Positions 405 to 58,246 of a stretch of DNA of 64,000 nt are shown piece after piece (the first letter of the stretch is position 1; each line of letters begins with the position of its first letter). The DNA lies in assembly GCA_963693285.1 (NCBI GenBank), contig OY848917.1, forward strand, positions 5,900,118-5,964,117, read 5' to 3'. The notes under the pieces are model-generated. The model was given only the letters and a program-made list of their open reading frames with translations, ran no database searches and was not told the DNA's origin. Source of the DNA: Xestospongia muta (lineage: Eukaryota; Porifera; Demospongiae; Haplosclerida; Petrosiidae). The translations under genes were made by a program, and so were the position numbers.

Positions 405-2416
405 AGCAATTGAAGATGAGAGAGAGACGGCCGTAAATCGAGCTCGTGAAAGAGAAGAGTTAGTTATATATGTCATGAGTCAATTGTTTTAATTAATTAA
501 CACAGACAGAACATCCATTTAAAAGCTGAAACTGATACACAACAAAGGTTAGGAAAAAGTATATAATTGGCATATGTACACATGTTCTTATAAAACAGAT
601 TGTATGAGGAATTATTGACTAATAAGGCAAAACTCCAGGAAAGGTATAACATAATTTAGATAAAGTAGATAAAGTATTAACATTGTGATTTAATACAACC
701 ATACAGGTTACGTGAAGACTCATCTTTAGGGAGTAGGCCAGTGACACAACTAATCGAAAGGAGGTCCGCTATCTTATCATTGGATCAAAAAAAGACAAAA
801 AAGATAAAAGTAAATATTTATGGAAATCTATTAGTCTCAAGATGAATATATATTTATAGAAAGTCTATAATGCAGTGATTGAAGCACTTGTGTCAATGGC
901 TGATAAGCGTCTTCGTATGATTACTGATGCCAGTAATCAAGAGCTTATCACAAGTCCAGAAGACCATAAGAAAGAACAGTACAAAATCTATGGTCTTCTT
1001 CTTAGTGCATGTAGATTTAGAAAAAGATCATCATCTGATGGTGTAAACCAACAAACATCACAACAGGTTAGCTGATGCCAATGAATGTCATTCTACACTA
1101 TAATATGTTTTTACAATCAAAGGTATTGATTGCTGTAGCTAAAAACCATGCAATACTTCATGATAATGAGCCTCTCTTAAAAAGTAACATGGAAAAAGCA
1201 GTTGCTTTAACTCATTCAATGCTAACACGTTTACCACCCTTGTTAGTTTGTAAGACACTTTTATATCACGAGGACTATTATGATACAAATCGATTGACCT
1301 GGGATGAAACTAAAAAGACAACCACCTGTACGTTCCTCTGCTATCGTCCTGTTGTCTTCTTTGGTAATACAAAACATGTCGCTGTTAAAGGATTACTGGG
1401 AAATACTGAGGAAGAAATAAAAGATGATGTGCTACCTCTAGAGAGCTGTGAATTGGAAGCAAAAACATCACTTTTTCAAGACAAATCTCAACCACTTAAA
1501 GTAAGTATTTCTTTATCAGTTATTTAAAAACATTTTGTATATCACAAAAATGCATGCATAATTCTTTTATTACACTCATTACAATTTGCACAAATTTCTA
1601 TATAGGAAAAGCTTAAACTGGCTTCTTCTTTAGCAACAGACTCTATTATTTCTAACTCAGATTTCCAAGCACCAACAGGCCCAATAACTAATCAAGGTAC
1701 TATAGCTATTCTATATAGCAGCTTGTATTTATGGAGCATTACAGAGAGACCTCGTATTAGTGTCTATGCAACAAAAGGTGTAGATAAACCATCAAAAAAC
1801 CCTTCTTCAACAATCAAGAAGAGAAGTAAGTTTGAACTCTGGTTGACCGATCCAATTCAACAAACACATTCTTGTAGAACAACTTTTTGAACAACCAGCA
1901 TGCAGAGCAGAGCCAAAACCCTCTACAGCAAATAAAACATTCTCACAGTCTCGCGGTAAATAAGTGCGTTAACATTCCTAATATTCTTACATCCTAGGCC
2001 ACATAGTTAAAGAGAAATGCTTTATGTATGAGAATAAACACTCATCCAAGATGGGCTTAAGTAAAGGTATTGTTCTATCAATACTTACAAATCTTATTTC
2101 AAATCCCAAAGAAGGAGCTAAGAAACCAGACATTAGAAGTGCAACTCCCATGGACTCCTCTTTTGCAGAACAGAGGTATACAAAGTCTACATGTTATAAT
2201 TTACTAACCATATATACATATTTTCCTCTATCCACCAATTTTAACAAGCATTTTTAACTATAATTCTATTTGTTCATGATATTGTCTTGTTAACCTTCAG
2301 TGCAGTCTTTTTCTGTACTGTAAAGCATTAATAATAACATTTATAATATTTATTCCTATGATAGATATCCAAGATCCTCATTGTTCAATCGAGAAAAGAA
2401 AGTAACAACTGTTTAG
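405..2416 (+). CDS. Gene A: coiled-coil protein with MIEAP-like domain (5' end not found)
   Basis: Exons read as 405-458, 506-547, 599-643, 707-809, 860-1066, 1123-1500, 1606-1696, 1745-1825, 1878-1955, 1998-2066 and two small last exons (about 2115-2175 and 2365-2416), ending TAG. Phases join without stops. The first three exons (54, 42, 45 bp, all phase 2) encode a charged coiled coil. The exon at 860 carries EQYKIYGLLLSAC and the exon at 1123 carries LTWDETK...CYRPVVFFG...VAVKGLLGN, the two hallmarks shared by this family, resembling the C-terminal domain of mitochondria-eating protein. The tail is polar, basic and probably disordered. The initiator exon must lie before 405 or outside the window; a CRE-like TTACGTCAT at 132-140 could mark the promoter. 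The 2067-2114 stretch stays in frame and may be exon or intron. Function is inferred only from the domain resemblance. Confidence 0.62.
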
Positions 2417-2631
2417 CTTTCATAAAATGCTACACTACTATATGATTACAACTTTAATATAGATTTATGAATTTAGTTATGTTATTGTTAAAAGTTAGTT
2501 ATTGTATTATTGATGTCCTTTATATTTTAACAGGTTATATTTGTTTGCAAAATCACATATAAAAGTTAAAATTTATTATTTTGACACACAATTCATAGAT
2601 CAATATGTAATGTGGGTGGTGTTGAGTTTTA

Positions 2632-2708: not shown

Positions 2709-5700
2709 ATGTCTAAAAGCGACGCTATGCAGAGGTAAGATTCGATAAAGTGAGGGTCCTAATTATGTGTTATGTTCATGGCTTTTACTTATCACTTTGT
2801 TGGAAGATAATAGTCGATGTATTATTCTCATAATCAATATTGTGTGAATGTATCAAAAAGAGAATACTTTTGTTTTACTGATTTATTTTCGTTTGTCTTC
2901 AATATATAATATCATGAATTCTAAACTCTCTTATTATGTACTTTGAACATGAACTTAATGAACTGCCTTCATATGTACAAGTTCACAGTCTTAATTTTAT
3001 CTTTATAATAACTTAATAATAACTGTTTTCATACTCTATTAGTTTTAGACTAACTATCTGTATCGAGTAAAATGAAACTTCACATATATCCTATTATATA
3101 TAGTTTACATCTTGGGCTCATATTGACAAACAGCGGAAGCACTTTGAGTAACATGAGGTTTCTATAATATAAATGATTGCAATGCCTAATTTTCTCATTC
3201 AATCAGTCAATCATGTTAATATGTATATATTTAGGACTTTGCTTTAAACGCTAAGATATATGTGTTACTGCTTACCTACACTTTTTTTAGCGAGCCTATG
3301 TCCATTGTTATGTACATGTTGAACATATAACGCCTTGAAATTATGGCATTTATGATGTTATTTCCTGTCATAGATACTATACAGCGTCTTAACTTGTTGT
3401 TATTGTACAATTATAAATTTTGGAATAGTTTAATGATATGTTTGGCCTCTTTTTACGGTTACTGTCCACTGTGTCTTTCATCAATGAAAGATAAGCTAAA
3501 CACTCTCCTTTACTAAAGTCTCTTTGTGAGTATACAAAAAATTATCTAACAAAGGTCACAAGTTTAATTGAACCAATTAAACTAACTTATCAAATTAGTA
3601 AGAGCAAGAGTTACATTTTTAATCTATCTCTTCTCAAGTTCATCGTAAGTTAGACATGAGCTTTGCCAAGCCCTTTGGCACAGCAATTAGAAGGGTCTAA
3701 CTCAATTGACTAAAGGAAATAATTAGTTAATGATAACAGGAAATTACACTAGTTTTGTTTTCAGACTATTCTATGATTTACTTAATGAATGTTTAGTCAC
3801 GTTAGATCATCACTATGTAATTTATTACTATGTAATTACCCTCTAATACCTAATAGAATGGCTAAGAAAGTCATATTGTATGAACCTATCCCTTGTTCAC
3901 TGTGTGAGAATCTTCAACAAAATCGACTTTGAGACGACGTGTGTATACACATTTATATGTCTGGTCATGTTAGATTTAAGCTACACACTCTTTAAGATAA
4001 TGGTGCATAACTATGATACACTCTGACTATATTTTCTTATCTACAGAGAAAGAGACCAACTTGAACAAGATGTAATGGAACTACAAAGGTAATCTGTTAG
4101 TTATATCAATTCACATTTTATTTGTTATATTCTATGACAACCTTGTTTGCAGTCCTATAATTGTTTTGGACCACATGATATGTAACTACACGTATATTGT
4201 GACTACGTTTGTTTTCAAGATTTTATTCTTAGTGTATACGTATCTAACACCAAAAATGATCAAAAATTCAAAGTTCATGCTTTAACCACAAACAAACAAT
4301 GAATAATGTATCCAGTACCATGAGCAATGTGACAGTAGGTATGATTGATATGCTTTGGCTAGCTTGCTTGTTGTACTCTCGAGCACTCTTCACAGCTTTT
4401 GCCAACTAACTAATTGTCATCTTCAAAACTATTATAGGACAATTTATTTTATAAAGTACAAGTTCATGTCTAAAGCAAATACTTCATATACCTATATCAT
4501 TACATGTTTTTGTATATTTATTATTTAGAGACGTTCAAGGTCTTCAACAAAAGATACTAACTGCTGGAAGGTTAGTTCATTTTGTCTAAGACACCTAACT
4601 TGCTAAGTTAGCTTATCATTAGTCTCTATAGAAAACTATTGCTAAAAATAGTGACTATGCATATTGTCCTGGAATTATAAATCTGCCTGGTTATTATGAA
4701 ATAGCCTCTAATACATACTTTATGATTATATATCTATATGTAACATTAAGGTTGAGCTAATAGAAGCTTTGATGTTACCACGCGGAAAATAATATTTTTA
4801 TAGCTTAATCTATCATAGATATCCAACATTGATAACTTTTGCTTGTGGTTCATATATCCTTAACCACATTTTACATAACATAAACACAACATCTGTCTCA
4901 CTTTAACGTGTACTACTGAAATTTGATTCAAGACAATCATGATGTACAAATTATAGGCATTGATATATTAATGTGTTTTGTTTTATATCTACATTATGTA
5001 TTTGTGTTGTTAGTGAGATTAGCTCATCAAAAGATGCTAGAAAGATGTATGGAGATACAACTCCTGGAGATGTTACTCACCAAGATGTTACATTAGAATA
5101 TTCTGGATACTTTAAACATGCCTTTAGAAACTTACCTAAGTCACTTCAAGAAAAGTTATCAAAGTACGAGATTTGGGAGATGTGTGCTGATATAATGAAG
5201 GTAACTGTTACATAGCATCATAGTTTATTGTGTGGTTAGTCTTGTTACAAAGAGTTTAATATGGCATGTTAAGTAACCATACATTTTATTTGATAAATTT
5301 CTTTCTAGTAATACCAATGATTGCTCTCACAATTTGTCATAATGTGTGCCTTGTTTATAGTATGTCTTTGTTAACTCTGGCTTTTGTTTCTCTAAACCAA
5401 CTTATCATGTGTCAAAATATTTCACTAGTGAAGGTCTTAATATCAGTTACAAAATTACATGTAGCTATTTTAACAAAGTATTATTATAAGCAGATGTATT
5501 ACATGATGATGTATTCACATGAACAGACTGATCTGTACAATTGTTGTAGTACCTATCAATGTTCAGTTAAGCATTCTATGTACTGTAGCTCTAAATATAA
5601 CACCATTATAATGCTGTATTATCCTTGTTGTAATATAGGTAATTAATTGATTGATAAGTAACTGATTGATTGATTGATTGATTGATTGATAGGTAATTGA

Positions 5701-7762
5701 TTGATTGATTGATTGATAGGTAATTGATTCAATTTGATTGATTGATTGATTGATTGATTGATAGGTAATTGATTGATTGATTGATTTTTTTCTAGTCATC
5801 TTATGATGCTAATAAAGAAGAGATAATCGAGGAGATGATATCTAAAATGAGACAAGCACTAACAGCTGATAAGAACTCACTTACTGAAGATACTATTGAT
5901 TTATTGAGAGCATTCTCTTTTTTAATACATTACTTACCTCTTGAAGAAATAAAACAAAAGGTGAGTAAATTTAAATATGTAATTTTGTTAGAAGAATGGG
6001 ATGGAGATTACTGTTGTCAAAGAAGCCAATACAATGCCAAAGCTGCAAGTGAGGCATTATAGTGCTTCTGAGGGCAACTTAGAACTAACACCAAGGTCTC
6101 TTACTGCTTAGAACTTAGCTAGCAAAGCATCTCCAGCCATTTCTAGCTCTCAACAACAACGCATATACTTTAAGTAGAATTAAGTAGATTTGTTGGTTGT
6201 AATATGTTTAACATCAAGTCTAGAATTCGTTTACTTACTTCTTGTCTCCTCTTGCAATAAGTCAACATAATATTTTTGCGTGTGTTTCAAACTTGAAGCA
6301 AATTTTTAACTAATTTACAATGTTTTGAATTCAGGTGTGATAATCTACAACGTTCTTTGTGGATATTATAGTGATTTACATGTTAAATACAGTGACAAAA
6401 ACTGACCCAATAAGATTATAAAATTATTTTTAAAAACTTCACAACAATGGAAGCGTTGTAGCACTGACCAGTTTATCTTAATCTGGATGTTTAGTTTAGT
6501 CTAGCTGTGTACTAGCATTATGATAAAAAGTTGTTCCTCAGAGGTATTTAATTGCAAGAATATAGTCTTAGTGTATTCTTTGAAAACCTGTATTATGTTA
6601 ATTTTAATAATTTAGTAATTTTTGTTTTTCTTAGGTAATAGAAAATGGATCTTGCCCTCTTAATAAAGAAGCTGTAGATGTAGCAATGGACATTATCACA
6701 ATGTTACCTCCCACTGATCATCAACTTGTTATAAATGGTGGCAAAACAGGAAAGGGAGGAGCTTCCAAGGAACCAAAGACTACAAGAGACACAAGAGGTA
6801 CAATATTAACTGGAGGTCATTGGGAAAGTGGAAATACGTTAAGACCTGAACCTATTCGTGAAGGTTTGTAATTATAATAGTTAGGATACTTATCATTCTG
6901 TGATAATAGTTATAACTATTTGAAATATTTACATTAAGATACACACCATTCATTGCATCTAGCCATATTAAAAAGAAAATGTGCTGCTTGTGGACAACTT
7001 TTTAGTCAAAAGTAAGTACATCTGTTTAACAATTCAGTTATAATTGTTTTCCAACTAGTGAAACGGCGATCTTTCATTTAGGAAAATACTACCATAGACA
7101 TCATGCTATATGTGACAACTGTAAGAAGCCTATTGAACTAGATAACTGGAAATTTACAAAGTCAAAAACGTACTGTCTCTCATGTTTATGTACTACTTGT
7201 GGAAAGCCCTTGGGTACAGAAGAGGTATAGTCACTGTTTCTAACATAAATTTACATTTAAGCATAATGAAGTGTAATTACAATGTCATTTAGTTTTGACT
7301 TGACCAACATCACATTGGTATTAAAGTAATCATTTTTATTTAGTAAGCGTTTACATCCTGAACTATAAAAGTTATTCTAAATTAATATAAGATACACTTA
7401 GCATTGGATTACTAACATAACGTTCCATCTTCTCACTAATCTAATCATTCTAGCTTTCCATCCAGTCTAAACTTACAAAACATATGGTACTGCTTTTGTT
7501 TGAAAGTCCTACCTTTCATTATAATAAATACAACATGTATTGTTAGCTACTATATAAATGTCATGACACTATTAGTAGTTTCTATTTGATACAATATTGA
7601 CAAAGTTTTGTCTTCTAGGTTTTTGCAACTCAAGATGGTGATCATTATCATCCCTCTTGTTTCCATTGTATCCGATGTAAAAGTAAAGACAATCTGACTA
7701 AAGTTGAAAGAGACCTTATATGTCAAAAATGTTTCTCCCTTTATTATAAAAAACTAATGTAG
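2709..7762 (+). CDS. Gene B: coiled-coil / MIEAP-like N-half / two-LIM-domain protein
   Basis: Exons 2709-2734, 4047-4088, 4529-4570, 5014-5200, 5796-5960, 6635-6863, 6963-7011, 7059-7224, 7619-7762 give about 349 aa. The start exon (MSKSDAMQR) ends in phase 2, matching two 42-bp coiled-coil exons. Residues ~40-100 carry ARKMYGDTTPGDVTHQDV, the family signature, followed by a helical region. Two LIM zinc-binding domains follow from ~residue 235: LIM1 with CAAC, HHAICDNC and CLSC, then LIM2 with CTTCGKPL, HPSCFHCIRC and CQKC. LIM domains bind proteins, so an adaptor role is likely. The RPVLFYG half seen in A, D, F, H and P is absent. A second in-frame donor at 6798 would remove 22 codons, so alternative splicing is possible. 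The first intron (about 1.3 kb) is unusually long and may hide another coil exon. Nothing else recognisable lies in 2735-4046. Confidence 0.78.
5648..5786. repeat. GATT microsatellite in gene B intron
   Basis: Interrupted (TTGA)n tracts separated by TAGGTAA units sit just before the acceptor at 5795 of gene B. Open frames across it on both strands are simple-repeat artefacts. Its closeness to the acceptor could affect splicing if its length varies. Confidence 0.9.
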
Positions 7763-8705: not shown

Positions 8706-9175
8706 TATTTAAGTTGAAAGATAGTCATACACAGCTTTAACTTCCTCACTAGTAATGCAATATTGGCTTTAGCTTGTATTTCTGTCTTTGTATTTTCATC
8801 ACAATAGGACTTGATGTCTGTTATGAACACTTTGTCTATACTATATCAATGACAAATGTTCATTGTTTAAATTAAAATAGCCTGATCTCTTTCTATTAAC
8901 ATCCTGATATGTTCAAAATAAAAGTGTCGGGACTGTTCTTTTTGATAAATTGAGTTTGACCAATTGCAATAACTTCTAATGATTAGCCTTGGTCATGAAG
9001 AAAAATGGTATTTGAAAAAGAGAAGACTTAGCGTCTGGATATCCAAATGTAGAGTGTATACAGCAAAGAAACACATGTTGCACCAAAGTCGATTGCAGTG
9101 ATGTTCCTTCTTTAACACGATATCCTGAGTCAGTTCAGACAATTATCATCCTCTAGATAATGGCTCCTTATTTAT
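8706..9175 (-). pseudogene. HSPA12-like relic, internally deleted
   Basis: Read on the minus strand, 9175-8881 aligns with exon 1 of the intact copies (KEPLSR near 9165, a match to IDFGTT near 9095, and YFEHIRMLIERDQ near 8885-8920). Then 8770-8706 aligns with the extreme C-terminus (TEIQAKA then YCITSEEVKAVYDYLS after a one-base frameshift). Everything between, including exon 2 and most of exon 3, is missing, and stops are present. It is divergent to gene C, the same arrangement as intact gene K and the orphan exon at 39114, so it marks an ancestral HSPA12/coiled-coil pair. Confidence 0.85.
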
Positions 9176-9229: not shown

Positions 9230-9237
9230 TCACGTGA
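9230..9237. promoter_or_regulatory. TCACGTGA E-box (CLEAR/M-box-like) before gene C
   Basis: A palindromic TCACGTGA lies 70 bp upstream of the gene C ATG and 55 bp from the edge of the divergent HSPA12 relic. The same 8-mer sits between gene K and its divergent partner at 39044. It is the core recognised by MiT/TFE-type bHLH-zip factors and by other CACGTG binders; which one acts here is unknown. Confidence 0.5.
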
Positions 9238-9306: not shown

Positions 9307-9493
9307 ATGGCCACAGCCTCGGTTATGCTAGAAGATGTAGAGCGAGAGATGAAAAAGTTAAACTCGGAGATTGAACAAGCTAACGAGTTAGTCCTATTAC
9401 ACAACAACTTCTAATGTCATATATAATATATATTATAGAGAATCCAGGTCTCTTGATGAGGAAGCTAAAGACCTCCAAAGGTATATATACATA

Positions 9494-9524
<31 letters not shown>

Positions 9525-11059
9525 ATTGCAAGTTCATATATTCATATGAAAATACCATACACTATGTATTTCTAGCAAGAAAACAGATCTAACTAAAAAG
9601 ATCAATGGTTTACAGAGGTAAGGATGTTTAGGTAAAGTATTAATGTTGTACTGTTATTCCATGCCATGAAGTGAGATACAACAGCTTGAAGAAGAACTGG
9701 AGAGACAAAAAAGGTTAAGTTTCAAACTTTTATAAGTTCTGATGTTACTAATATTTATAACTACTAATATTGCTATGCATTGCTATATCTATAGACTTAC
9801 AAGCTCTTCTCGAGATGCACGTAAAATGTATGGAGACATGACACCTGGAGATATTACTCATCAAGATGTCATCTTACAATATACTAACCACTTTAAAGAT
9901 GCTTTTCGTAACATGCCTAAAGCTTTGCCACAACATGACAAATATAAAGTTTGGCAGATGTGTGGTGATATAGTTGAAGTATGTTCATAATTGTTGTTGT
10001 ATTCAAATTATTTCTTGTTGCAATTTTCCAATTCACATCATAAGTGAAGTAATCGTACAATATGTATTAATAATATGATTGGATTGATGTATGTGGCCTG
10101 CATTTTCATACAAATATTAAACTTCCTCAATATAAGTAACTATATCAGTTATAGATTCCTGTTATTATTCTCTTTGACCAGGAAAGCTTTAAACAAAATA
10201 GAGAAAGTATTATCAACACAATGGTTGATGCTCTTGGAAAGGCACTTCTAATGAAAGAAGACATTCTTACTGATGAAATCATTGATCTACATAGAGCTTT
10301 CAAAATGCTAGTTAATGATATAAATGAAGAGGAGTTGAGACAAATCAGATCAAAAGTATGTTGTGCATATGAATGTGCTTAATGAATATCCTATTCAGGT
10401 TACTGCCCAAGTAAAAGATAGCAGTGAAATGTTTGACTTAGTTATGAATGTTATAAAGAATCTTGATCCTAGTGATTACATTCATTTCCTTGAAAATGGA
10501 GAGCTAATGACAAGGAAGCTAGAACATCCTAAGACCGAGACAAGACAGATGTATTCAAGTAATAAGTGGTTAACCATTGTGTTTATCTGTTTATTCCTTT
10601 TGCTAGCAGAAAGCAGTCATAAAAATAAAGTCTGTCCTGCTTGCCAAAAGAAAGTTAATGAAATGTAAGCTGTATTCTAACTATGTGATTTGATTTTAAT
10701 GATTGGTAGAGAAACACCTCAGTATCACTTGAGTGAACATTGGCATAGGGAGCACATGTTCTGTGCTTGTTGTAGAAGCATGGTTCAAGGTCTTGATCAG
10801 TTTATTTTTTATAACTATCAAACCTACTGTACAAATTGCTTTTGCAAAGCTTGTGGCCACCCAATTAAGAATGAAGTAAGTTAATTAGTACACATATAAT
10901 CTAACCATCATTTTTAAGACTGACGCAGTTATGACTGAAATAGGCAAATTCCATACAGCATGTTTCAGGTGTCATTTCTGTTGTGGTAATGATACATCAC
11001 TGATTATGGTCAATGATCACTTGATATGTCAGTATTGCTACAAAACGACATCAAAGTAA
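9307..11059 (+). CDS. Gene C: coiled-coil / MIEAP-like N-half / two-LIM-domain protein
   Basis: Exons 9307-9386, 9439-9480, 9576-9617, 9672-9713, 9795-9978, 10182-10355, 10399-10558, 10607-10664, 10710-10875, 10919-11059 encode about 362 aa, the same length as gene I. After an 80-bp start exon (MATASVMLEDVEREMKKL), three consecutive 42-bp phase-2 exons each encode exactly two heptads. Residues ~70-130 hold SSSRDARKMYGDMTPGD and the following helical domain; residues ~130-240 are helical and acidic. LIM1 starts near residue 248 (CPAC, HWHREHMFCACC, CTNC), and LIM2 follows (CKACGHPI, FHTACFRCHFCC, CQYC). LIM domains mediate protein contacts, so a scaffold or adaptor is likely. Its promoter side faces a dead HSPA12 copy. 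Confidence 0.85.
9497..9524. repeat. (GT)n microsatellite in gene C intron
   Basis: Fourteen uninterrupted GT units lie 17 bp after the donor of the first 42-bp coil exon. Confidence 0.95.
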
Positions 11060-12130: not shown

Positions 12131-14477
12131 ATGGAGGTACATCTTAAGTAAGTGAAAACGTTGTTATTGCTTTATATGTATCTCATCGTTACGATTAGGC
12201 AATGTCACAACTCGGAGTTATTCCTAGAGCTTATCACAAGAACCAGGTAGGTTAATAATTATAAACTAATACAACCTCGTTACATATCATCTTATCTATA
12301 AAATATTAGACAACTAGAAATCCGTCATCAAACATCCTGTGGCCAACGTGATTATCTGGAAAGGTAATACCATACTTATCATACTTAAGTATCTGAAATG
12401 TCTTGTTCTTTAAAATTATATACATGTACAGTCAAAATAAAGACCTAAGAGACTCTATTCAAGAACAGAACAAGTAAGATGAAATTTCTTTTTTTGCTTT
12501 ATTGATGTTTGATGCATTAGACTTTTGGAGAATATGACTAAAAAACACAATGAACTGAAAAAGAGGTTTGTATATATTTTGGTGCTCCACATATAGCTAT
12601 AACAAATACAGAGCCAATTCTATCAAGACAGAAGACCATCATGAATTGAAACTGAAACATAGCAGTGTGCTGAGTAAAGTCACTCTAGATGAAGCAAGGG
12701 TAAGATAACAAATATTAATATATAACTTCATCAAAATATAATACTTATTTACCTACAGGAAATGTATGAAAAGCTAATTCAGCAGATTCTTGAGACAAAA
12801 GTCAAAGCTTATCTCGAAGGACTTCTGACATCTACTTCTGAAATATCACCTCAACTTGACCAAAGGGAACTATACAAAATATATGGTCTTCTGCTGAGTG
12901 CTTGTAGGATAAAGGTAAAAGAAGAGAAGCATTCCATGCTTCATGAGGTTAGTAACTCTTAATTTTTTAAAGTATCTTCATTTCACATAAGGAAGCTGTT
13001 GGTGAACCTGGTCTAGAGGTGTACAAGGCAAAATCAGATATACTAACACATAATATGCTAAAACTTCTGCCACCCTTGCTTGTTGTATGTGATGAGAAAC
13101 AACAACATAGGATCAATAAGGAGATCTATGACACATTCAGACCAACTTGGGATGATACCAAAGATTTATCTAATATCTTTTGTTATCGACCAGTTCTTCT
13201 CTATGGTAAACAACATTCTATTGCTGTGAAAGGATTAGTAGGAAACTGTGAAAAACCTCAAATTCATAATCAATGGGACTCTAGTGCAAATCAGGATTTA
13301 GCTAAAAAGGTATACTTGACAAAAAATTAACATAAGTTGAATCTATACACAGGAAGTAAAAAAATCACATACACTTTTACCAAGTTATAAATGGCCACAA
13401 AACCAAATTTGGCAGACAGGACTCAATTTAGAGAATCATCAAGGTGTTTTTTACAGACCAGTTTGTGACACATCTGATAAAAGTAAGAGCAATAAATTAC
13501 ATCTATTAATATTATATTTAAGCAGCAAAAATGCAACTTTGTCAAGTTTGTCAATCTCAAGTGTGAGTTTAAGTGAATATTACTAAAGTAATCAGGCTAA
13601 TTTGTAGATTTGAAGCTGACACAGTGGGAAGAAATGGGAAATTTTGGCATAAACACCATGCTAAATGCTCAAAATGTCATGTTGATCTAACAGATAAAGC
13701 TTTTTTACAACATTATGTCATACCTGAAACTAATCTTGTTACATGTCATCAATGCATTATTGTGAGTTATAGTAGTTACAGGTTGTACTAAAACAAAAAT
13801 TACCTTCATTTTTTAGAAAGACTCAAAGGAGACATCTCAATTTTTGCCTGGCCAACTTGTTGATACTACATGCCAAAAAATGCCTAGGCGTAATACTAGT
13901 TATTTTGGACAACAAAAGTACTCTCATACTCTCTCCACACACAGAACATATGGACAATCTCATTTCTTTGGTAGGTTTTTCATAAATGACTTAAAATAAG
14001 AATTAAGTTTCTTAAAATTACAGTACCAAGTAGTATCAACAAGCAATGTGCTGTTTGTGCTCAAAACATCAAGACAGTGCAGGCAAGTTTATAAAGACTA
14101 TCACATTTATTTATGGTTATTAGATGGCAATGCAATTAAAAAAAGACCAGTTTATACATCGAGAGTGCTATGTGTGCTGTCTTTGTAACAACTACATTGA
14201 AACAACTAATGCCATGATACTTGACACAGGTCAATTAATATGCTTTAGATGCAATAAATGCTGTCGATGCAAAGAGGCAATTGATGAGAAGTCATTTAAA
14301 TACCAGGGTGCTCACATGACAGCTGGATACCTATGGCATAAGAACTGTTTCAAATGTTTTGTACGTGTATTCAATTATCATGAGTTTAAAATTACAAATT
14401 TTATTCCTATGTAGACATGTTATAAACCATTGGATCCTGATGGTTATTGCTTAAAATGTGGAACCACTGGACTTTGA
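12131..14477 (+). CDS. Gene D: coiled-coil / MIEAP-like domain / three-LIM-domain protein
   Basis: Exons 12131-12147, 12199-12246, 12310-12363, 12432-12473, 12521-12565, 12597-12699, 12759-12947, 12992-13309, 13353-13482, 13523-13562, 13608-13761, 13817-13970, 14024-14082, 14124-14360, 14415-14477 give about 550 aa. Small phase-2 exons encode the coiled coil. The exon at 12759 carries ELYKIYGLLLSACRIK and the exon at 12992 carries FRPTWDDTKD...CYRPVLLYG...IAVKGLVGN (MIEAP-like). From ~residue 315 three LIM modules follow: CQVC...HHAKCSKC...CHQC; CAVC...HRECYVCCLC...CFRC; CCRC...HKNCFKCF...CLKC. This gene joins the RPVLLYG half found in A/H/F/P with the LIM half found in B/C/I. The intron after 14082 uses a GC donor (GCAAGT), and 13523 has a NAGNAG acceptor. 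It converges on gene E with a 521-bp gap in which I see nothing. Confidence 0.83.
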
Positions 14478-18424: not shown

Positions 18425-18498
<74 letters not shown>

Positions 18499-41680: not shown

Positions 41681-42335
41681 CTTTCATAAAATGCTCCAAT
41701 AGTGTTTCCCATTTATATGGTACAAGTCAAATGATCACATGTTTTATTTCTAAGCTAGCTGTAAAGCATGTAAAATATTACTATAAGGACAAATTAAGTC
41801 ATAAGACTGATTTACAAGGTATTCAATCTTTACTAAGTTATTATAAGTATATAATTCCTATAATAGTAATATGTACATGTAAGAAGTATTCTGTTAGTCT
41901 GACATATTATCATTCCTCTTCACTTCAATTACATCCCTACCTCTATGGTATGTACACAAACGTGATCATATTTTGTTAACATTGATAATTTATGCATACA
42001 AATGGTAACTATAATTATTATGCTTTGATAGATGTTCTGTGCCAATTCTCCATATAAAGAGAACTAGTAGACTCTCACTGAACTGATATGTTATGGGTTT
42101 GTATACTACTAAATTAAAATACTGTATTGCATGTTACTGTTTTAAAAAACAACAGCAACTGGAAAAGGGGAATTTATTCATAGCACATGAGCCACACCCT
42201 CTTCTCGCCATGTATTGGTTACTTTCAAAAACTGATGCTGTTTACCATCATGAAACAGTAAAAGAGTACATATTTTGTGTATCTAACATTAACTATTGTA
42301 TATTACCTTATTAGATGTTGTGTTGACTTGCTAAA

Positions 42336-44090
42336 ATGGGAAGTAACGGACAAAAGAGGTCAGTTGATATATGGTATGTATTGAATATATATATATATAT
42401 ATATATATTGACTAGCTATTTAGGTCTGCTGTTGTATAATAGATATAATAATTAGTATACTGACAACAACATGAACTCTTTTGTTGATTGTAATTATACT
42501 ACTCATATTGATAAAATAGTTTTAACAAAAATTAAAAAATTAGCGCAACCAAGTTGCTTTAGTGCTCAATGCCTATCCTTATTACAATTGTAGTAACAAA
42601 AATCACCGAAATAACAACATTGTAAGAGTGTAAGGGCTATCAACAGATAAGGCGTATTTTATTCACTTTCTTTGATAGTTGTCTATAATTTAACTAGAAC
42701 GTAAAGAGTTAAAAATACATACACTTCTGTTGTGAATGGTCATTTAAAAAGAAGAGGCATGCTTTGTGTACCATTAAGTTACCTATATGTTAGCTACATC
42801 TACATGTCTATACAAAGAAGATTTATGTAAACGATACATTATTATTTTAAAGATAAATTACATTTTTACTTAGCTAGTGGATATATTTGTGATTAGGAGA
42901 TTTACAAGACTAGAACAAATCAAAGATACTCTAAAAGAAAGATTGAAGTGCAAGTATGTTACATAGTATTAATAAATGCTTAGTTTGATGTGTACATTTT
43001 TTGTAAAGTGCTTACATTACTATAATTTTGTTAACATTTTACACTTTAGGACATCTTACTAACAGTTTGTTGTTTGATTCAACAAAAAAAACTCATTGAA
43101 TTATTCATAATGTGCTAGTACATAGTGCTAGAACTGCTAGTTGTATGTGATACTGTATAGCTGGGGATTGGATTTAAGTGTCATGAAGCCTCCAATGCAC
43201 TAAACTAAAATCTAATAAAAATTAACTCTGCATAATTTAAAATGGCAGACAGAAAGTAAGTAAAAAATTAATGTCATGTAAATTTTATCAGCAAAGTTTA
43301 ACATCCATGAATACAACAGACTATACAGTAATTGTTCGTACTGGTAGTTATTTAGCATACAGTTTGCTTTTTACATGGTTTTTTAACCCTATAGTAATAG
43401 CCATTCATTTTATGTATTGCAAATCTTGTCCACTTTCTTGTCATTAATTCAGTGATCACAACAGCTCAATGTACAAGATATCGTCTAAATGTTCAACTGT
43501 ATATATAAGCAAGATGGCTGCTCTGTTACAGGTACATGATCTTATTTACATGATATATATATATATCACCCAGTAATCATATTTCTATAAATCTTATATA
43601 CAAAGCCTATAAGTGGAACAAATCCTAGATTGCTACTGTTATCTTTCATAAAAGGAGTGTCAGAAGTGATAATAGAGTTTTGATTTTGTTCTGCCATTAG
43701 TTCTTCCTAATGTTAAATATAATCTATATTAGATTGATATTAGTTAGCATACTAAAATCACCATAAGAAAATTGATTGTTGTGAAGACGTTTAGCAAGGT
43801 TTCCACTTTTAATAGTACATTGGAGCTTTTTAGTTCTATTTATCATTATTTGAGGATTAAAACATTTTCACATCCCACTCTTGTTATCATATTATCATAT
43901 TTTCGGATCTTTCTTGAAGGAAAAACTCCATGAGTTTCTGACTAGACCAGATGATCATGAGTTTGATATCAGTGGTAGTACTATCTCTGAAACTAAACAG
44001 AAGGAACAGTACAAACCATATGGATTATTTTTGACTGCTTGTAAAACTAGAGACAAGAAAGAAACTGCTGTAGATAAAGCAAAAGAAAAG
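42336..44090 (+). pseudogene. Truncated coiled-coil/MIEAP-like gene (5' half only)
   Basis: A phase-consistent chain can be read: 42336-42358 (MGSNGQKR), 42897-42953 (coil, RFTRLEQIKDTLKERLKC), 43453-43498, 43920-44090 (KQKEQYKPYGLFLTACK). All junctions have GT-AG sites and no stops. The exon with RPVLFYG is not found. Instead a retroelement relic starts near 44520 and a 5'-truncated copy of gene P starts near 45130. Either the gene is dead or it makes a short protein. An alternative start exon is 43242-43255 (MADRK). Confidence 0.45.
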
Positions 44091-44519
44091 GTTAGTAAAT
44101 AATTGATGTACAATGATTGAAGAAAGATATTTGACCAATTGATGGCCAAACAACGTTAGCACTATGCATGTCATGGCAACAGTTTTACACACCTGAGTAT
44201 CATAAAGCAATGTTCATGTACTCCTTTTACATCTACAGAAACTTAATACTGTCTACACTGATGGTTTTCTTCCTTTAACTCTATGAGAAATAATTCGTCA
44301 ATACTAGGATGACAATGATGCAATGTTTTATTCGTTTACATTAAGTATGCATACATATAAAGCATTGTGCAATAGGCCAGGTGTTTGATTGACAATTTTG
44401 TTCAAATTGACACCACAGCCAATATAATAGTCATATCACCAGCTACACACATGAAGATTGGTAGCCCTCCTTAACAGTCTGCTGACACAGGTCTAAATGG
44501 CTCAAGCTGTCATAACATT

Positions 44520-44880: not shown

Positions 44881-45129
44881 AAGGTGGTAAGTATCTGTAC
44901 AAATTAATGTTTTTATATCTAAGTGACATAGATGTTACTGATCTTAAGTGTTGTATTAACTTTAAATTATAATGATGAAGCTTATTCTACTAGTATGTGT
45001 ACATGTAAATTAATAAATCTCTTTAGTTATATGCATGTATACTTTAGCATGTATTGAAGCCTCCTATGTTTGATATTTTAAGAGAATCCAGTTTTCTTAA
45101 TATCTGTGAACAATTTGATGAAGTCACAA

Positions 45130-46329
45130 CAATTAAGCATTGGTTGCACCATCTACCACAAGAAAACAAAGATGCTGACAGCGACAGCATCCAGCAAGCA
45201 CTGTCTCCATTGTTTCTGGTAGAATGATAATTCCTTTGTATTAGAATTAATTTATTGTTTTCTAGGACACTTATAACAAAACATGTGATGGAGTTATTAA
45301 CATTTTGTCTAATCAATTGAGAGAGTTGCTTCGAGATCCATCTACTGACATTCAAGAAGAAACAGAAGTTGATATCTCAGTTCAAGAAAGACAAAGATAT
45401 CTCCACAGCTTTTTCGTTACTGCTTCATCATGCCAAAATAAATTGTGAAGAGTTTTACCAAAGTTTATTTGAAAAGGCAAGCTTCATAGCTGTACCAATC
45501 TACCTATAATAATCACTTAAATTGCAATGTCTATATACATCTCGTTCTTTACATGTAGTGTAGTACCTTAGATTCAGTACATATGACAGCTGGAGAAAAG
45601 AAGATTTATATGCCAAAGGAAACTCGTGCAGATTTGTCACAAATTACCTTAAGTATGGTTACACAGGTCCCAGCTATGATATGCAGTGAGCCTATAAAGT
45701 TTAATGAAAAATTCCATGATATTAAAGAGTCCAAATGGCAAGACAATATCAGTGATTATGAACTAGTTTATTATTGACCAGTTCTTTTTTATGGTATACA
45801 TGGTGCTGTGGCTGCTCAAGGTCAAGTTGGAAATCGTGCATGTCCTATAGAGACAATGACTAATTTTCAATCAACTGCAGTTGAGTCCGAGTTTGAAGAT
45901 GAGCACGATAAAAGCTTAACCAATGAAATAAACTTGTCAAAACATGCTAATGGAGTATCTGCTATAACAGAGCTAGAAGATGTTGAAAATACATTAGAAG
46001 GAAGAATTGAAGTTTGCCTCCAGGAAAATGAAGAGTCTCGTGAAGATGAGAGGGGAAAGGAAGTTAACAATAATTCAAGTAATGAGAAGTCACAGAATAT
46101 CTGTCAAATTATTGAAAATGATGGAGACCGATTACCAGAACCTGATAAGACAAGTGAAGGCTTATTGAATAACATCAACAAAAACGGTCAGTTGGGTGAA
46201 GGCAAAGACAATACTCAATCATTAAAATTAGAAAAAATACCAGATGTCAGTGATGATGACAAAGTAAAGAATAAAATATCAGAAAGCATTGTAAATGAAT
46301 TACATGAAGAAACTGATGTTGATGATTGA
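45130..46329 (+). pseudogene. 5'-truncated broken copy of gene P
   Basis: Homology to gene P starts abruptly at about 45130 (P position ~57048), so the coil exons and ARKMYGD are missing. A two-base deletion near 45391 shifts the frame, and TGA at 45775-45777 replaces the CGA of RPVLFYG. The remaining acidic tail (45808-46329) is open and nearly identical to P. The GC donor at the matching intron is retained. Confidence 0.9.
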
Positions 46330-48292: not shown

Positions 48293-50364
48293 ATGGCCAG
48301 TGGAGGATTTATTGATGTAGAGCAGTTACGCGTAGTCAATCTAGTGGGAGTCTGTGTTAAACCAAAGGAGCCTCTATCAAGAGCTAATAAAGTAACTCGT
48401 TCCGTCTCGGGATATAGAACAACCAACAACAACATAGCAGCAATTGACTTTGGGACTACTTCTGTGACATTGTCTTACACTACTCTTGGTGACAAAGAAA
48501 TTAGTACTCTGACATTGGACGAGGCGAATAAGGATACACGAGTTCCAAACTCAATTTTACTCCGTAAAAACGACAAAATCTTTTCAATAGCTTCGTTTGG
48601 TAACAATGCTAGAGATATCTACACAAAGATGCGTACCACTGACAAAGAAAAGCACGTATACTTTGAAAGGATCAAGATGCTTATGAAAAAAGAACAGGTA
48701 TAATAAATAAAACATACATTATATGCATTTTATTTATACATGTTATATATAGACAATTGATCGTCAAAGTGTAGTTGAGTCATTGACTGGAGAAAAATTT
48801 TACCTTTTAGAAGTAGTTGCTTTTATCTTAAAGTATTTACGAGATTGTTTAATTGACCACTTTGTTCGAACTGCTAAACCACTCAAGACTTCAGACTTTG
48901 ACTGGGTCATCACTGTACCTGCCATATGGGATGCACGAGGAAAGAGAATGATGAGGGAAGCTGCTTACCTGGTAAGACCTCTAATTTTTAATTTGTCTAA
49001 TTAAATTTTTATTGTGTAATTAAATATAGGCTGGACTATTAACAGAGTCTTTAGGAATAACTCAACTAACACAAGTGGGTTATGAGCTACCTTGTCCAGC
49101 AGAAGTTAATCCTGATAAATTATCACTTGCCCTTGAGCCTGAGGTAGCAGCTATTTATAGTCAGCAGGTAACAGCAAAAGAAGTGGTGGAAGCAGGAACA
49201 TCATCATTTCTGAAGCCAAATGGGAATTATATGGTTGTTGACATTGGAGGAGGAACAGTTGATATAACTGCTCAAGGTGTGGTAGATGGTGCTATTGAAA
49301 TTCTTACTATTCCTGTGGGAAATGATTGGGGTGGTACACAAGTGAATGAACAATTTTCTACTTTTTTGGCAAAACTTGTACAAGATCCAAATTTTTCTTC
49401 TTTTCTCTCTTCTGATAATCAAATACAACACAGAGCTATTATAACCAAGCTTCTTTACCATGAGTTTGAATTACAGAAATATCAATTTGGCAGCAGAACC
49501 CTGCATGATGACGAAATGATTATAGATATTCCCAATGATATCATTAAGTTTTATGGTGCAACAAAATTGAGAGAGAGAGCAGAGTCTGTCCCTGGTGTTG
49601 AATTTGACAATGACAGTCTTTACATTAAGAAAGAAGTAATTGAAGAAACATTTTTTGGTCCACCAGTAAACGGAATTGTTAGCTTCGTGATGACTATCCT
49701 GGACAATTATGACCATCATATTGACACAATGTATCTCATAGGTGGATTTGGAGGTTGTAAATATCTCTATGAAACTTTGAGAAGGGAAATTCATAAAACA
49801 TTTAGTAGAACTATCTGTAGTATTATTGTACCAACATCACCTAAACTAGCTGTTGCTGTAGGAGCTGTGATGTGGAGAAAAAATCCAGATCTAATCAAAG
49901 CCCGAAAAGTTGATGCTACCTATGGCATTGCTGTTACAAGTCTATTTGATGATGACAAACATGATCGCCACTATCGTTTCTACAATGAGGAGCAGCAATG
50001 CTATAGATGTAACAATATTTTTAAAATTTTTGTACAAAAAGGTGAAAGAGTACAATCTGACGAGGTGTTTACAACAGATTTAAGACCAAGTTACCAGTCT
50101 GAAACCAAAATGAAATTGAATATCTTGTCTACACCACTTGTAGGTGTTGAATATATAAAAGATAAAGAAGGAAAAATGAATGTTACAAAGATTGGTAAAC
50201 TTGTTATAGATATTCCAAATCCAGACAACCTTCCTCGAGAGAAACGAGTTGTTAATGTTACTATGGACTTCAGTGGTACTGAGATACAAGCCAAAGCAAA
50301 GTATTGTGTTAATGGGAATGAAGTGAAAACTGTTTGTGACTTTTTGTCTGCTCAAACAAAATGA
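48293..50364 (+). CDS. HSPA12: Gene O: HSPA12-like HSP70-family ATPase
   Basis: Exons 48293-48697, 48753-48971 and 49030-50364 encode 652 aa. I chose MASGGFIDVEQ (48293) because the sibling R starts there; an in-frame ATG at 48221 would overlap the promoter E-box. Motifs: AAIDFGTTSVTLSYTT, DWVITVPAIWDARGKRMMREAAY, LSLALEPEVAAIY, YMVVDIGGGTVDITA, TMYLIGGFGGCKYLY and PTSPKLAVAVGAVMWRKNPDLIKARK; end CDFLSAQTK. It is a near twin of R. The differences cluster after residue ~510 (for example VTSLFDDDK against VTPFNDDK, and the 50070-50180 region), while the ATPase core is almost unchanged. Confidence 0.94.
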
Positions 50365-51111
50365 TTGCTTGTTTGTTTTTGTTCATGCACATTAATATCT
50401 TGTTTTTTAATCTTTATGTTAGAGCTTTTATATTTAAAAGCTGGATGTATAACCAATGTAATTTGTATATATAATATCAATTGTTGAGACCACTGTTTAT
50501 TAGGAATAAAATTAGTATGACATTTCTGAACTCTTAATAATAAGTAGCTGCGTTTGAGTTACTGGTTTAATCAATTAACAATGAATAAATATATATCTTT
50601 CAAAAATTTTTGCTTTTTCAAAATATAAAAAAAATATTTTTTTACTTACTTATGTTGTACTCCTGGAATAAATACAATTGTCTCACTGCGAAATCTATCA
50701 CTTTGTACATACACCTGAAAATTGTGTACATTCTTTGCTCTGTAGCTCTATATTTAAAACTTTCATTATTTCTAATCCCTATAGTGTTGTTTACATATAT
50801 ATAACTTGTTAACATGCTGATTGGACACATGCATTCAAAGTTAACATGAAACTGATGTAAGATTAGATTGAATTATTGGTATACCTGTGTGTCATGCATC
50901 ATCAAGTTCTCATGCGGGATTGTACAAAGTAATGTTAACCTTACTGATACTATAATTGCTAAGTCCATATTTGCAATATTTGTTAAACTGCCTTTTATAT
51001 TTACGATTTTCTATCTCCTCAAATGCTTTTCATATAGTTCATTTATGTGATGATGCACACTGACTGTCTGTATTCACATCAGTATCCTATAAATCAAACA
51101 ATTACATATGT
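50365..51111. other. Intergenic downstream of O
   Basis: The first ~520 bp are shared with the region after R. Compared with the second copy (62729-63948), about 1 kb including the start exon of the Pro/Ser-rich gene and the MITE is missing here. Confidence 0.7.
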
Positions 51112-53027
51112 ATTGATACCCATGTTACCAGGTACAACACCAACCTCAATTAGGCAACCTAAACAGGAAACTCCACATTGTTCCACATACTCTATAGATT
51201 ATCATGGGAAACAAACCAGCAGAACCTCACTAACTGATAATGACTTAGTGAACAAGACAAATTCCTTAAACATTTCAGAAAAACAGTTTGTACCTTCTGT
51301 TCTAACACAAAGTTTAATTCTTCCAAACCTACCTACTTTGAAGAGTACAGTACCCTCTGTTGCATCACAAAGTTTATCTGTTCCACCACCTGCTATTTCA
51401 AACATTGTCCCTTTAGCAACACCACAGAGTTTAACTCTTTCACATCCACCTATTTCAAACAATCCGATACCATCAGTTACATCACAACCTCCATACCAAG
51501 CTACTAATGTAATACCATCAAATAAATCACAGCGAGAACATGCAAGTCATCCATTTACAACTACCTCATCTATACCTCCTCCACCCTTAGCTTCAAAGCG
51601 TCCAGATTATATTGAATCTGGAAGAATAAAACATTATAGGAAATCTTTAAGTGAATCGCCACCATCTCCTAACAAAAAATCACTAGTGATGAAAAAAGTG
51701 TTAAGTCCACCAAAAGTTGACAGCAAAATCAATGACTTTCTCTATACTCCTGTCACTAAAGAATTTCATTCCCTCAAGATTAATGGAGTTTCTAAAGAAT
51801 GTAGTTCTAATCCTGAACCACAAGGATTAACTTTTCCACCTGTTTCAAACAATCTGATACCATCAGTTACATCACAACCTCCATACCAAGTTGTTAATGT
51901 ATTATCATCAAATAAATCACAGCAAGTACATACAAGTTGTCCATTGACACCTAACTTACCTATATCGTCACTACAAATCAGAAAAAATGTTGACAGTGCT
52001 CTACATCATCCTAATACTAACATTGCATCTTTACCTCCTCCGTCCTTTGGTTCAAAGATTTTGGTTTCTGATTTTAGTGAGTCTGGGAGAACAAAACATT
52101 ACAGGAAATCTTCAAGTCAATCCCTACCATCTCCTAACAAATAAACACCAGTGATGAAAGAAATGTTAAGTCCATCACAAGCTGACAGTATAATGAATGA
52201 GTTTCTCAGTACTCCTGTTACTAAAGAATCTCGTTCCACTAAGATGAATGCTGTTTCTAAAGAACGTGTTTCTAATCCTGAACCACAAAAGTGTACAAAT
52301 TCAAAAACCATTAGCCCTGGTATTAAACCATTGTTAAGAGCTTATTTTTCTGAAAATAGCTCTTCCCATGTTACTCATACTTCAACTTCATCTCCTATGA
52401 GTGTAACTTTTGCTGTTTCTAGAGAAATTTTTTCACCTACAAACAATATCTCCATTTTAGTACGAAGCAGAACCAAAAAAAATCACCTACCAGACAAAGA
52501 GTATCCCAATTACAATTTCAAACTATAAATCAACAACAATCTGTTAGTAACAATGCGTCACGATGTCATCCAAGTTCTATAGTAGAGAGAACCCATCATA
52601 TGACACTGAGATCTGCAAATAAGAAAAAAACACTCCCTTTATCTCCATATCAAAAAAGTAAGATTGTTATAATTGTATAAATGTTTAAGAAAGCTCTTTA
52701 CTATAAAAGACATACAATCAAATCTATGTACAAATTGTCCGTGTATTGTCTGACCACCTTAAAATCAAATATTATTAAGACCACTTAGTAAAGTTATTGA
52801 TTTTTTAATCCATAACTCTCTCTTTTATTGCTTGCTCAAATGTTAGGAAAATAGTTAATTGACAAGAAAAGACATTTTATAGGAAGTTACAATGATTGTT
52901 AATAATTATGTGATCATAGTTAGTGTGGCTTACAAACATCTTTAAAAGTTATTTATATTATTTTATTTTTCTATTTACAGCGAGTTCATCAATCATCATA
53001 TCGACAATATCGTACGTAAAGAACTGA
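51112..53027 (+). pseudogene. Pro/Ser-rich protein gene, 5'-truncated and broken
   Basis: A long open frame (to 52141) encodes a low-complexity Pro/Ser/Gln/Asn-rich, probably disordered protein. An in-frame TAA (52142-52144) interrupts it and the same frame resumes. A frameshift in an A-run near 52480 then moves the coding signal to another frame (SPTRQRVSQLQFQTINQQQ), which continues to a donor at 52658 and a last exon 52981-53027 ending TGA. Homology with the gene at the window end starts at 51112; its first exons are missing here. Segments such as SNNxIPSVTSQPPYQ, SGRxKHYRKS and NDFLYTPVTKE occur twice, showing internal duplication. No known domain recognised. Confidence 0.7.
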
Positions 53028-54471: not shown

Positions 54472-54509
<38 letters not shown>

Positions 54510-55737: not shown

Positions 55738-58246
55738 ATGGGTAACCACCTTGGAGCAGCTGGATGGACCTCGGAAGACGTTGACAGAGAAATAAAAGAA
55801 GCTGTAGGGACAATTAATAGAGAAATACAACATGTGCTTCAAGAAAATGGGGAGAAATTCTTTAGAAAGTAAGCGCTATACTATGTGTGTGTGTGTGTAT
55901 TATGTATATATAATGATGAGATTCACAGCCCATACATTTTGAATGGGAGGGTCGGTTCCATATAACTCATATAGACCTCGTAGCAGTTTAAAATTTAAAA
56001 TATTGTACCTGACAGGTTAAATAACTAGTTCCTTTTTTCATAAACAGCTAAGCGGCAGGCTTATATGGACCTTGTGACAAGCTTTATTAGTTCTATCATT
56101 ACCGACAGATCTATAAGCATTTCAAGCCTCCCAACATGACAATTTAAAAGACTATTGCTCAAAGGCCACATGCTATATTATTAGCTTGACATTGTTGACC
56201 TGGGGACATATACATATAGAACTTGTACAGCCTGCAAAAATCTTGCAGGACACGGAAATGCCTTATGAACTTAAGAGGTTCTCCTTTTCACTTTATACCT
56301 ATTCCAAGAAGTTCATTATGGCTAATAAAGTCCTTAAATCTCTTCAAAACTCTGCTCTAAAGCAATACACTACACAAGGTAGTACTAGTTAGCGCTAGTT
56401 AGTAAACCTGTTTTGAAAGGTCATCACCACAACCAGTGCATATCATAACAGCTGATTTTAGTAGATTTATGTAACACATATTGACCTTTAATATATAATG
56501 TAAGTATGCATTCAAAAAGAAATGTATCTATTAAAGGGCCTATTCTAAAATTCAAGAGAACTGGAGAAAAAAAGAAGAACAGCTTAAAAGGTATGAACAA
56601 TTAACAGAAGCATCATCACTGATTTGCACGAGTGACCCAATTAGCACAATTGTCTTCACTATATACACTGTCATTTTGTAGGGAGAATGAACAGCTCAAA
56701 TCTCAAATAGATGAGTGAGTGTACTGAATATTGTTAGATTTCCAATCCATCACTTTAAATTTTCTAGATTGAATAAAGCACTAAAACATGAAAAGGAAAC
56801 ACTTCAAAAGTAAGTAAATGTATTTTTCTTTATTTATATATTATTGAAAACAGGGAAAGAGAGAACTTGAAAAAGGAGAAAGAAGAAATTTTAAAGTAAT
56901 GAAAATTGATAAAAGTTGAAATATTGATGACTTTTATATAATTATTAAGACTTAGTTCACCATCTTATCAAGCTCGAAAAATGTACGGTGATGTAACTCC
57001 CGGTGGAAAGACTCATAAAGATGTAACAGGTGATTTTATCCAGTTCTTTAAGCGTTGGTTGCACCATCTACCAAAAGAAAATGAGGATGCTGACAGCGAC
57101 AACATCCAGCAAGCACTGTCTTCATTGTTTCTGGTAGAATGATAATTCCTTTGTATAAGAATTAATTTATTGTTTTCTAGGATACTTATAACAAAACATG
57201 TGATGGAGTTATTAACATTTTGTCTAATCAATTGAGAGAGTTGCTTCAAGATCCATCTACTGATGTTCAAAAGGAAACAGAAGTTGATATCTCAGTACAA
57301 GAAAGACGTAAAGATATCTCCACAGCTTTTTCTTTACTTCTTTATCATTCCCAAAAAAATCCTGAAGAGTTTTACCAAAGTTTTCTTGAAAAGGCAAGCT
57401 TCATAGCTGTACCAATCTACCTATAATAATCATTAAAATTGCAATGTCTATATACATCTCGTTCTTTACATGTAGTGTAGTACCTTAGATTCAGTACATA
57501 TGACAGCTGGAGAAAACAAGATTTATATGCCAAAAGAAACTCGTGAAGATTTGTCACGAATTACCTTAAGTATGGTTACACAGGTCCCACCTATGATATG
57601 CAGTGAGCCTATAAAGTTTAATGAAAAATTCCATGATATTAAAGAGTCCAAATGGCAAGACAATATCAGTGATTATGAACTAGTTTATTATCGACCAGTT
57701 CTTTTTTATGGTATACATGGTGCTGTGGCTGCTCAAGGTCAAGTTGGAAATCGTGCATGTCCTATAGAGACAATGACTAATTTTCAATCAACTGCAGTTG
57801 AGTCTGAGTTTGAAGATGAGCACGATAAACGTTTAACCAATGAAATAAACTTGTCAAAACATGCTAATAGAGTAGCTGCTATAACAGAGCTAGAAAATGT
57901 TGAAAATACATTACAAGGAAGAATTGAAGTTTGCCTCCAGGAAAATGAAGAGTCTCGCGAAGATGAGAGGGAAAAGGAAGTTAGCAATAATTCAAGTAAT
58001 GAGAAGTCACAGAATATCTGTCAAATTAATGAAAATGATAGAGACCGATTACCAGAACATGATAAGACAAGTGAAGGCTCATTGAATAACATCAACAAAA
58101 ACGGTCAGTTGGATGAAGGCAAAGACAATACTCAATCATTAAAACTAGAAAAAATACCAGATGTCAGTGATGATGACAAAGTAAAGAATAAAATATCAGA
58201 AAGCATTGTAAATGAATTACATGAAGAAACTGATGTTGATGATTGA
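55738..58246 (+). CDS. Gene P: coiled-coil / MIEAP-like protein with acidic tail
   Basis: Exons 55738-55868, 56537-56590, 56682-56714, 56768-56809, 56854-56895, 56950-57133, 57181-57393, 57476-58246 give about 489 aa. It parallels gene F exon for exon (start exon 131 bp in both, then 54, 33, 42 and 42 bp) but lacks one 42-bp coil exon. It starts MGNHLGAAG. QARKMYGDVTPGGKTHKDV starts near residue 105, SMVTQVPPM near 250 and YYRPVLFYG...VAAQGQVGN near 305, completing the MIEAP-like domain. The last ~160 residues are an acidic disordered tail without the repeats of F. The intron after 57393 has a GC donor (GCAAGC). HSPA12 gene R follows 2 kb downstream on the same strand. Confidence 0.87.

Follow-up and report, generated by a model that had tools for sequence, protein, structure and literature searches.

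Why do genes for HSPA12-type ATPases and genes for coiled-coil proteins resembling MIEAP lie intermingled in one part of a sponge genome? The question is raised by a stretch of 64,000 nucleotides of Xestospongia muta DNA (contig OY848917.1, here C1, positions 5,900,118-5,964,117; hereafter the window), in which five intact HSPA12-type genes and one HSPA12 relic are interspersed among coiled-coil/MIEAP-like genes (eight open, two degraded) and fragments of such genes, much as an earlier note on this DNA had described. We assembled the gene models by hand, leaving a number of N-terminal exons unplaced, so that "eight" counts predicted open C-terminal or LIM blocks (at ~0.86-1.5, 5.0-7.8, 9.3-11.1, 12.7-14.4, 18.1-21.25, 31.0-32.2, 33.2-34.8 and 55.7-58.2 kb) and not transcripts. 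A search of the genome (158 Mb in 28 contigs) showed that the arrangement is not peculiar to the window: HSPA12 and MIEAP-domain genes are co-located genome-wide and have multiplied jointly, in part as tandem blocks of two genes.

Because the genome searches score only the best candidates, the genome-wide counts given here are lower bounds. HSPA12 exon 3 produced at least 77 matches, which we merged by hand into 66 places, 49 of them at C1 5.40-6.03 Mb and the others at C1 4.81 and 13.6 Mb and on C4, C5, C9, C10, C12 and C13. The MIEAP C-terminal exons were found in at least 38 places, namely 32 in the same region of C1, five on C9 and one on C13, the canonical gene. Each of the 38 has an HSPA12 exon within 50 kb, and 35 have one within 20 kb (median distance 4.7 kb); the share of the genome within 20 kb of an HSPA12 place is 0.63%. 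The five C9 places are set among three HSPA12 places in a small array (C9:4.554-4.569 Mb), and all 26 matches to MIEAP N-terminal exons at E <=1, four of them weak, belong to the C1 and C9 arrays. C13 carries a head-to-head pair of HSPA12A/B-like genes (38.3-40.5 and 40.7-43.2 kb), followed by a small gene, which we take by eye to be DDRGK1-like (a Pfam search gave nothing), and by the sole canonical MIEAP gene (47.6-50.0 kb), ~4.4 kb from the nearer HSPA12A/B-like gene. As for the control families, none of the 49 canonical HSP70 matches is within 50 kb of an HSPA12 place (the closest is 785 kb away), none of the 88 SRCR matches listed (of 173), on HSPA12-bearing contigs, is within 50 kb of an HSPA12 place (the closest among those listed is at 344 kb), and three of 40 genome-wide LIM matches are in the array or within 11 kb of it. 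Enrichment of the two families as neighbours had been set beforehand as one test of their association, and with the HSP70 and SRCR controls unlinked it is borne out: the association is real, strongly non-random and extends to canonical MIEAP. From it we infer a possible working partnership of HSPA12 and MIEAP-like proteins. Among literature titles and the starts of abstracts on HSPA12, MIEAP/SPATA18 and sponge or mollusc expansions, we found none that reports HSPA12-MIEAP linkage.

The five intact HSPA12-type genes each have three coding exons. They are H1 (14999-17070, minus strand; exons at ~17070-16666, 16600-16387 and 16330-14999), H2 (26279-28345, plus), H3 (36648-38982, minus), H4 (48293-50364, plus) and H5 (60215-62286, plus), the last being a duplicate of H4 at +11,922 bp; in all five, exons 1 and 2 are followed by GT donors and exon 3 is preceded by an AG acceptor. 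The relic (~8870-9150, minus) retains AIDFGAT and YFEHIRMLIER remnants of exon 1, together with stops and frame breaks. An HSP70 nucleotide-binding domain was recognized in H1 (PF00012, 25.8 bits against a cut-off of 20.6), and in a set of 39 HSPA12 exon-3 frames chosen by BLAST the DxGGGTxD motif is kept in 36 and all three tested motifs in 30. The best named database matches of the window proteins are "heat shock 70 kDa protein 12A-like" proteins of Amphimedon queenslandica (59% identity), and none of the 49 PF00012 matches in the genome is an HSPA12 place; by both measures the window genes appear closer to HSPA12 than to canonical HSP70. The canonical HSP70 Pfam search was rejected as an HSPA12 finder, since it misses HSPA12 places. 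Exon 3 of H1 is 28-29% identical to the HSPA12 copies on C13. The confident predicted model of an Amphimedon HSPA12 homologue combines a nucleotide-binding domain of the HSP70 type with a beta domain that aligns with what follows the nucleotide-binding domain in BiP and DnaK, with the alpha lid absent, and the HSPA12 profile matched DnaK and BiP among PDB sequences at E <=0.001. The interpretation of the HSPA12 side as a predicted ATPase machine is well supported by the motifs kept in most frames and by this model. With HSPA12A and HSPA12B the array genes share the DFGTT, EPxxA, DIGGGTVD and VGGF motifs, the HSP70 fold of the homologue and the family name carried by the Amphimedon homologues; unlike them, they are massively multiplied and some copies start with MGN. 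One HSPA12-like protein of Amphimedon, P0025 (987 aa), is annotated with von Willebrand A domains and is possibly a fusion.

The MIEAP-like genes of the window, read from the plus strand, come in three forms. In the C type the MIEAP-like domain is complete and an acidic tail is present; this type is represented by Me (18142-21250), with the N-terminus MGNLFRRS, a putative coil and the domain encoded at ~19147-19333, 19379-19588 and from 19670 on, and by Mj (55738-58246), with the N-terminus MGNHLGAAG. The acidic tail of Me (20315-21169) consists of ~4.8 copies of a 177-bp repeat with 95% matches. In a second form the first part is diverged; it includes Ma (860-1524, the last two MIEAP-domain exons), Md (12726-14411, a MIEAP C-terminal exon at 12971-13327 followed by LIM-like exons at 13573-14411) and Mf (31028-32163, C-terminal exon at 31777-32163, 5' end uncertain). 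In the LIM type, a truncated MIEAP-like domain precedes LIM exons, as in Mb (4964-7759; MIEAP-N exons at 4964-5212 and 5796-6059, a further segment at 6635-6868, a LIM exon at 7030-7227 and a LIM-like exon at 7619-7759), Mc (9307-11056, head to head with the HSPA12 relic) and Mg (33236-34817; putative coil, MIEAP-N and LIM).

How well does the MIEAP label fit these proteins? The domain calls of the earlier note hold for HSPA12 and for LIM (PF00412, cut-off 22.9), which scored 26.9 bits in Mb, 24.3 bits in Md (14124-14411) and 31.4 bits in joined Mg, in a scan that covered the Mb and Md exons and joined Mg. For MIEAP (PF16026, cut-off 27) the call stands at the cut-off in Me alone, with 27.4 bits (E 3.9e-6) and 28.0 bits, and for the other copies through their relation to Me. 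In two C9 copies and two database homologues the matched part of the profile overlaps with that of Me, at scores under the cut-off; no direct PF16026 match came from the scans of Mj, Md, Mf and the LIM type. With a single window gene over the threshold, and narrowly, and with those others lacking a match as scanned, one might suspect that the assignment is wrong and that these are unrelated helical coiled-coil proteins of chance resemblance. We regard this as highly improbable, given that three of the four array members scanned match PF16026 at E <=1 (best E 2.7e-6), that Me and the C9 copies match overlapping parts of the profile (31-161 and 124-193, respectively) and that hhalign of a four-member array profile with canonical C13 MIEAP gave a probability of 91% (P 9.2e-7, 68 columns). 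Furthermore, all eight further matches of the canonical MIEAP last exon in the whole genome, weak as they are (E 0.37-2.9), land in the C1 and C9 arrays, which make up ~0.4% of the genome. The sole link of the LIM type to MIEAP is its hhalign match to the C type (P 1.6e-16).

Like MIEAP/SPATA18, the array proteins carry a MIEAP domain and, by indirect evidence, would have an N-terminal coil and disordered tails. A MIEAP-like protein of Amphimedon, P0129, has a long predicted helix (residues 11-85), and a C9 copy shows a Taxilin-like coil match (E 2.9e-4, below its Pfam cut-off). The predicted structure of P0129 beyond the coil was set aside for its low confidence (mean predicted local distance difference test score, pLDDT, 56), and a sequence search for a solved MIEAP structure found none, the best match (E 1.4) being an unrelated protein. 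The array proteins differ from MIEAP/SPATA18 in their strongly diverged domain, their many copies and the MGN starts of Me and Mj; in addition, some copies are cut short and fused to LIM domains or to tails that are acidic or Pro/Ser-rich.

When did the two families expand? A tree of HSPA12 exon 3 was built from 34 frames from this genome and 30 proteins of Amphimedon; several of its deep nodes have low support. In it the Amphimedon sequences form three separate clades of their own, which points to birth and death within the lineage, with a few groups older than the split from Amphimedon, and supports the lineage-specific expansion that had been proposed. For H1 and H4, the nonsynonymous and synonymous distances are 0.19 (dN) and 0.87 (dS), with dS saturated or nearly so in other pairs, and over such longer distances the ATPase is under purifying selection. 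The coil-MIEAP family probably predates the split from Amphimedon, as indicated by the coil and MIEAP-N present in P0129. Among the 120 of 1418 proteins listed, no HSPA12 was seen on a contig as long as that of P0129 (276,290 bp). Indirectly, in three cases (3,006,896, 1,199,687 and 8,691 bp) a MIEAP-like and an HSPA12 protein come from database records of equal length; the 1,199,687-bp record encodes the window protein P0144 and may be of the same species, and the remaining MIEAP-like records are unmatched in the HSPA12 list. Immune-type genes in tandem clusters, for example NLR or SRCR genes, evolve by birth and death and contain pseudogenes and lineage-specific clades, features that recur in the HSPA12/MIEAP array; here, by contrast, two unrelated families are interleaved, and in the array proteins scanned we found no receptor or known effector domain.

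Both families, taken broadly, have also multiplied in bivalves, animals far removed from sponges. According to the main text of a comparative study (PMC8382680), the bivalve HSP70 group has 68.1 genes per species versus 4.4 in other molluscs and the MIEAP group 53.1 versus 0.6, the two being the largest of the 16 groups of ancestral bivalve expansions in its first table, and its authors suggest a joint role of both families in handling intracellular damage. MIEAP domains are also reported to be enriched among mussel gill transcripts (PMC5549309). By analogy, the bivalve expansion of HSP70 and MIEAP would be the best outside support for joint action. It resembles the sponge case in that both families multiplied in one lineage and differs in that linkage of HSP70 and MIEAP goes unreported in the main text of that study.

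The reading that we favour, with slightly less than even confidence, is that two partner families form an array shaped by birth and death within the lineage, in which an HSPA12 ATPase acts on self-assembling MIEAP scaffolds. The earlier note had suggested such a pairing, with a possible role in stress or immune sensing. The N-terminal coiled coils of MIEAP-domain proteins, together with their disordered tails (acidic or Pro/Ser-rich), would drive assembly into membrane-apposed scaffolds or condensates; N-myristoylation would possibly anchor some copies, and LIM domains would let some recruit cargo. HSPA12, with its HSP70 nucleotide-binding domain and a lidless domain similar to the beta part of the substrate-binding domain (SBD-beta), would bind and release these scaffolds in an ATP-dependent cycle, and this cycle would set scaffold assembly or turnover during organelle stress. 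The neighbouring canonical MIEAP and HSPA12A/B-like genes on C13 may represent the ancestral version of the pair. The scaffold side of this mechanism is modelled on Mieap biology, for which condensate formation and cardiolipin binding have been reported (PMC10845071).

A serious rival, which could quite possibly be right, is hitch-hiking, in which two genes that happened to be neighbours in an ancestor were amplified as one segment by unequal crossing-over without any common function. Duplication in blocks is plain in this region: the window contains two copies of a tandem 11.9 kb block (offset 11.92 kb), and MIEAP-like/HSPA12 pairs in the same order follow just downstream, at 5.970/5.974 and 5.984/5.988 Mb. 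Several further observations fit hitch-hiking or otherwise weigh against a partnership. The mixing of the two families across the C1 array is at the random level (37 runs versus 39.8 expected, P 0.30), and the 41 neighbour pairs, 17 tandem, 15 divergent and 9 convergent, are near the random 2:1:1, which argues against a fixed bidirectional promoter; a fixed bidirectional HSPA12/MIEAP pair was discarded as a general pattern. Nor is the pairing obligate, because HSPA12 genes occur without MIEAP neighbours, both at five isolated loci (one at C1 4.81 Mb, one each on C4 and C12, and two on C5) where profile searches of 10 kb each found no MIEAP exon, and in runs of 13 and 16 HSPA12 places of the C1 array that contain no MIEAP C-terminal exon. 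Part of the alternation is accounted for by duplication of tandem blocks, and since a single ancestral linkage may underlie both C9 and C1, at most two linkages may be independent. The young duplicates H4 and H5 are weakly constrained (exon 3 dN/dS ~0.65). As to the bivalves, the main text of PMC8382680 does not state that the HSP70 group is HSPA12, places its members on six of ten oyster chromosomes and grants that neutral forces, too, can expand families. Hitch-hiking alone sits less well with the many deep copies of both families that have open frames, with the motifs kept by most HSPA12 frames, with the adjacency of the canonical pair on C13 as well and with the separate expansion of HSP70 and MIEAP families in bivalves. 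A perfect alternation of 17 places at C1 5.913-6.012 Mb has a probability of 4e-5 given the counts, but it was picked post hoc; it concerns C-terminal exons only and includes tandem blocks, and because the LIM-type genes Mg and Mh inside the run were uncounted, we do not use it as support.

Could the two families instead share regulation and nothing more? Some head-to-head gaps are very short: the HSPA12 and MIEAP starts of the C9 pair are ~36 bp apart, and ~130 bp separate the start codons of H3 and of the degraded LIM-type gene Mh (39113-40707, plus; stops in the LIM exon). The only two occurrences of TCACGTGA in the window (9230-9237 and 39044-39051) both sit in head-to-head HSPA12/MIEAP gaps; 0.39 occurrences are expected, and 6 of 100 shuffles reach two. 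We take this palindrome to resemble the CLEAR/E-box element of lysosomal genes. Such gaps and sites would suit co-regulation without contact, that is, one stress-responsive expression domain in which both families serve the same cell state without forming a complex. We consider this rather unlikely, in that the two window promoters count about once because they are paralogous, TCACGTGA is absent from the C9 head-to-head gap and tandem pairs number 17 of the 41. A CLEAR/TFEB-type promoter common to both families was rejected on the paralogy of the window gaps and the lack of the site in the C9 gap. Three further full TCACGTGA sites are counted at loci L029, L033 and L038, irrespective of their position relative to start codons.

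Returning to the partnership of ATPase and scaffold, both families include members that start with MGN, a possible N-myristoylation signal. These are Me (18142) and Mj (55738) among six placeable MIEAP-like starts, and four of the 25 HSPA12 frames of exon 1 that have a start codon (L019, L024, and L040 and L041 on C5). It is possible that such starts would bring both families to membranes, although the starts are predicted, few and partly paralogous. Sponges and bivalves are filter feeders that digest bacteria intracellularly, and bacterial membranes also carry cardiolipin. A bolder proposal, which we hold to be improbable, is that HSPA12 and MIEAP form an ancient, hitherto unrecognised chaperone-scaffold pair aimed at cardiolipin membranes that was multiplied independently in sponges and bivalves, giving diverse intracellular systems to recognise and enclose damaged mitochondria or engulfed bacteria. 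We know of no agreed general partner for HSPA12 proteins, and the presence of every detected MIEAP-domain gene near HSPA12 offers a direct and cheap hypothesis, that of human HSPA12A/B acting with SPATA18. The link bears on how MIEAP condensates are controlled, and the pairing could help explain why both families have ballooned in some invertebrates.

Are there other genes in the window? The earlier note had seen no unrelated intact gene between members of the two families, and for long frames this holds, with one addition, a Pro/Ser-rich open reading frame (ORF) block at 51038-52528 (plus); intron-rich genes with short exons could escape such a survey. The first part of this block has 21 matches in the genome, all within C1:5.951-6.022 Mb, and at C1 6.0197-6.0215 Mb a MIEAP exon and the Pro/Ser-rich tail were reported together in one 768-codon open frame, for which reasons it is most likely a C-terminal tail of the same MIEAP-like family. 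The beginning of the next copy of the tail lies at 63829-64000 (plus) and continues past the window edge. Within the 64-kb window, neither tRNA genes nor Rfam families at the gathering score were detected. The remaining features, all on the plus strand, are remnants of MIEAP-like genes: a relic of a C-terminal half (35706-36226), exon fragments (41677-44099) and the pseudogene Mi (45048-46329), with a truncated N exon and an in-frame TGA in its C-terminal exon.

Some minor observations concern other parts of the genome. Beside the HSPA12A/B-like pair on C13 (30-37 kb, L032) there is a prominin-like exon that scores below the Pfam cut-off, and the C9 array is flanked by a 286-codon ORF (C9:4573576-4574433, L037) that by eye has the look of a chitinase-type glycosidase. 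Finally, a cluster of canonical HSP70 genes at C3:656901-722251 includes two open frames of ~1020 codons, each with two tandem HSP70 matches.

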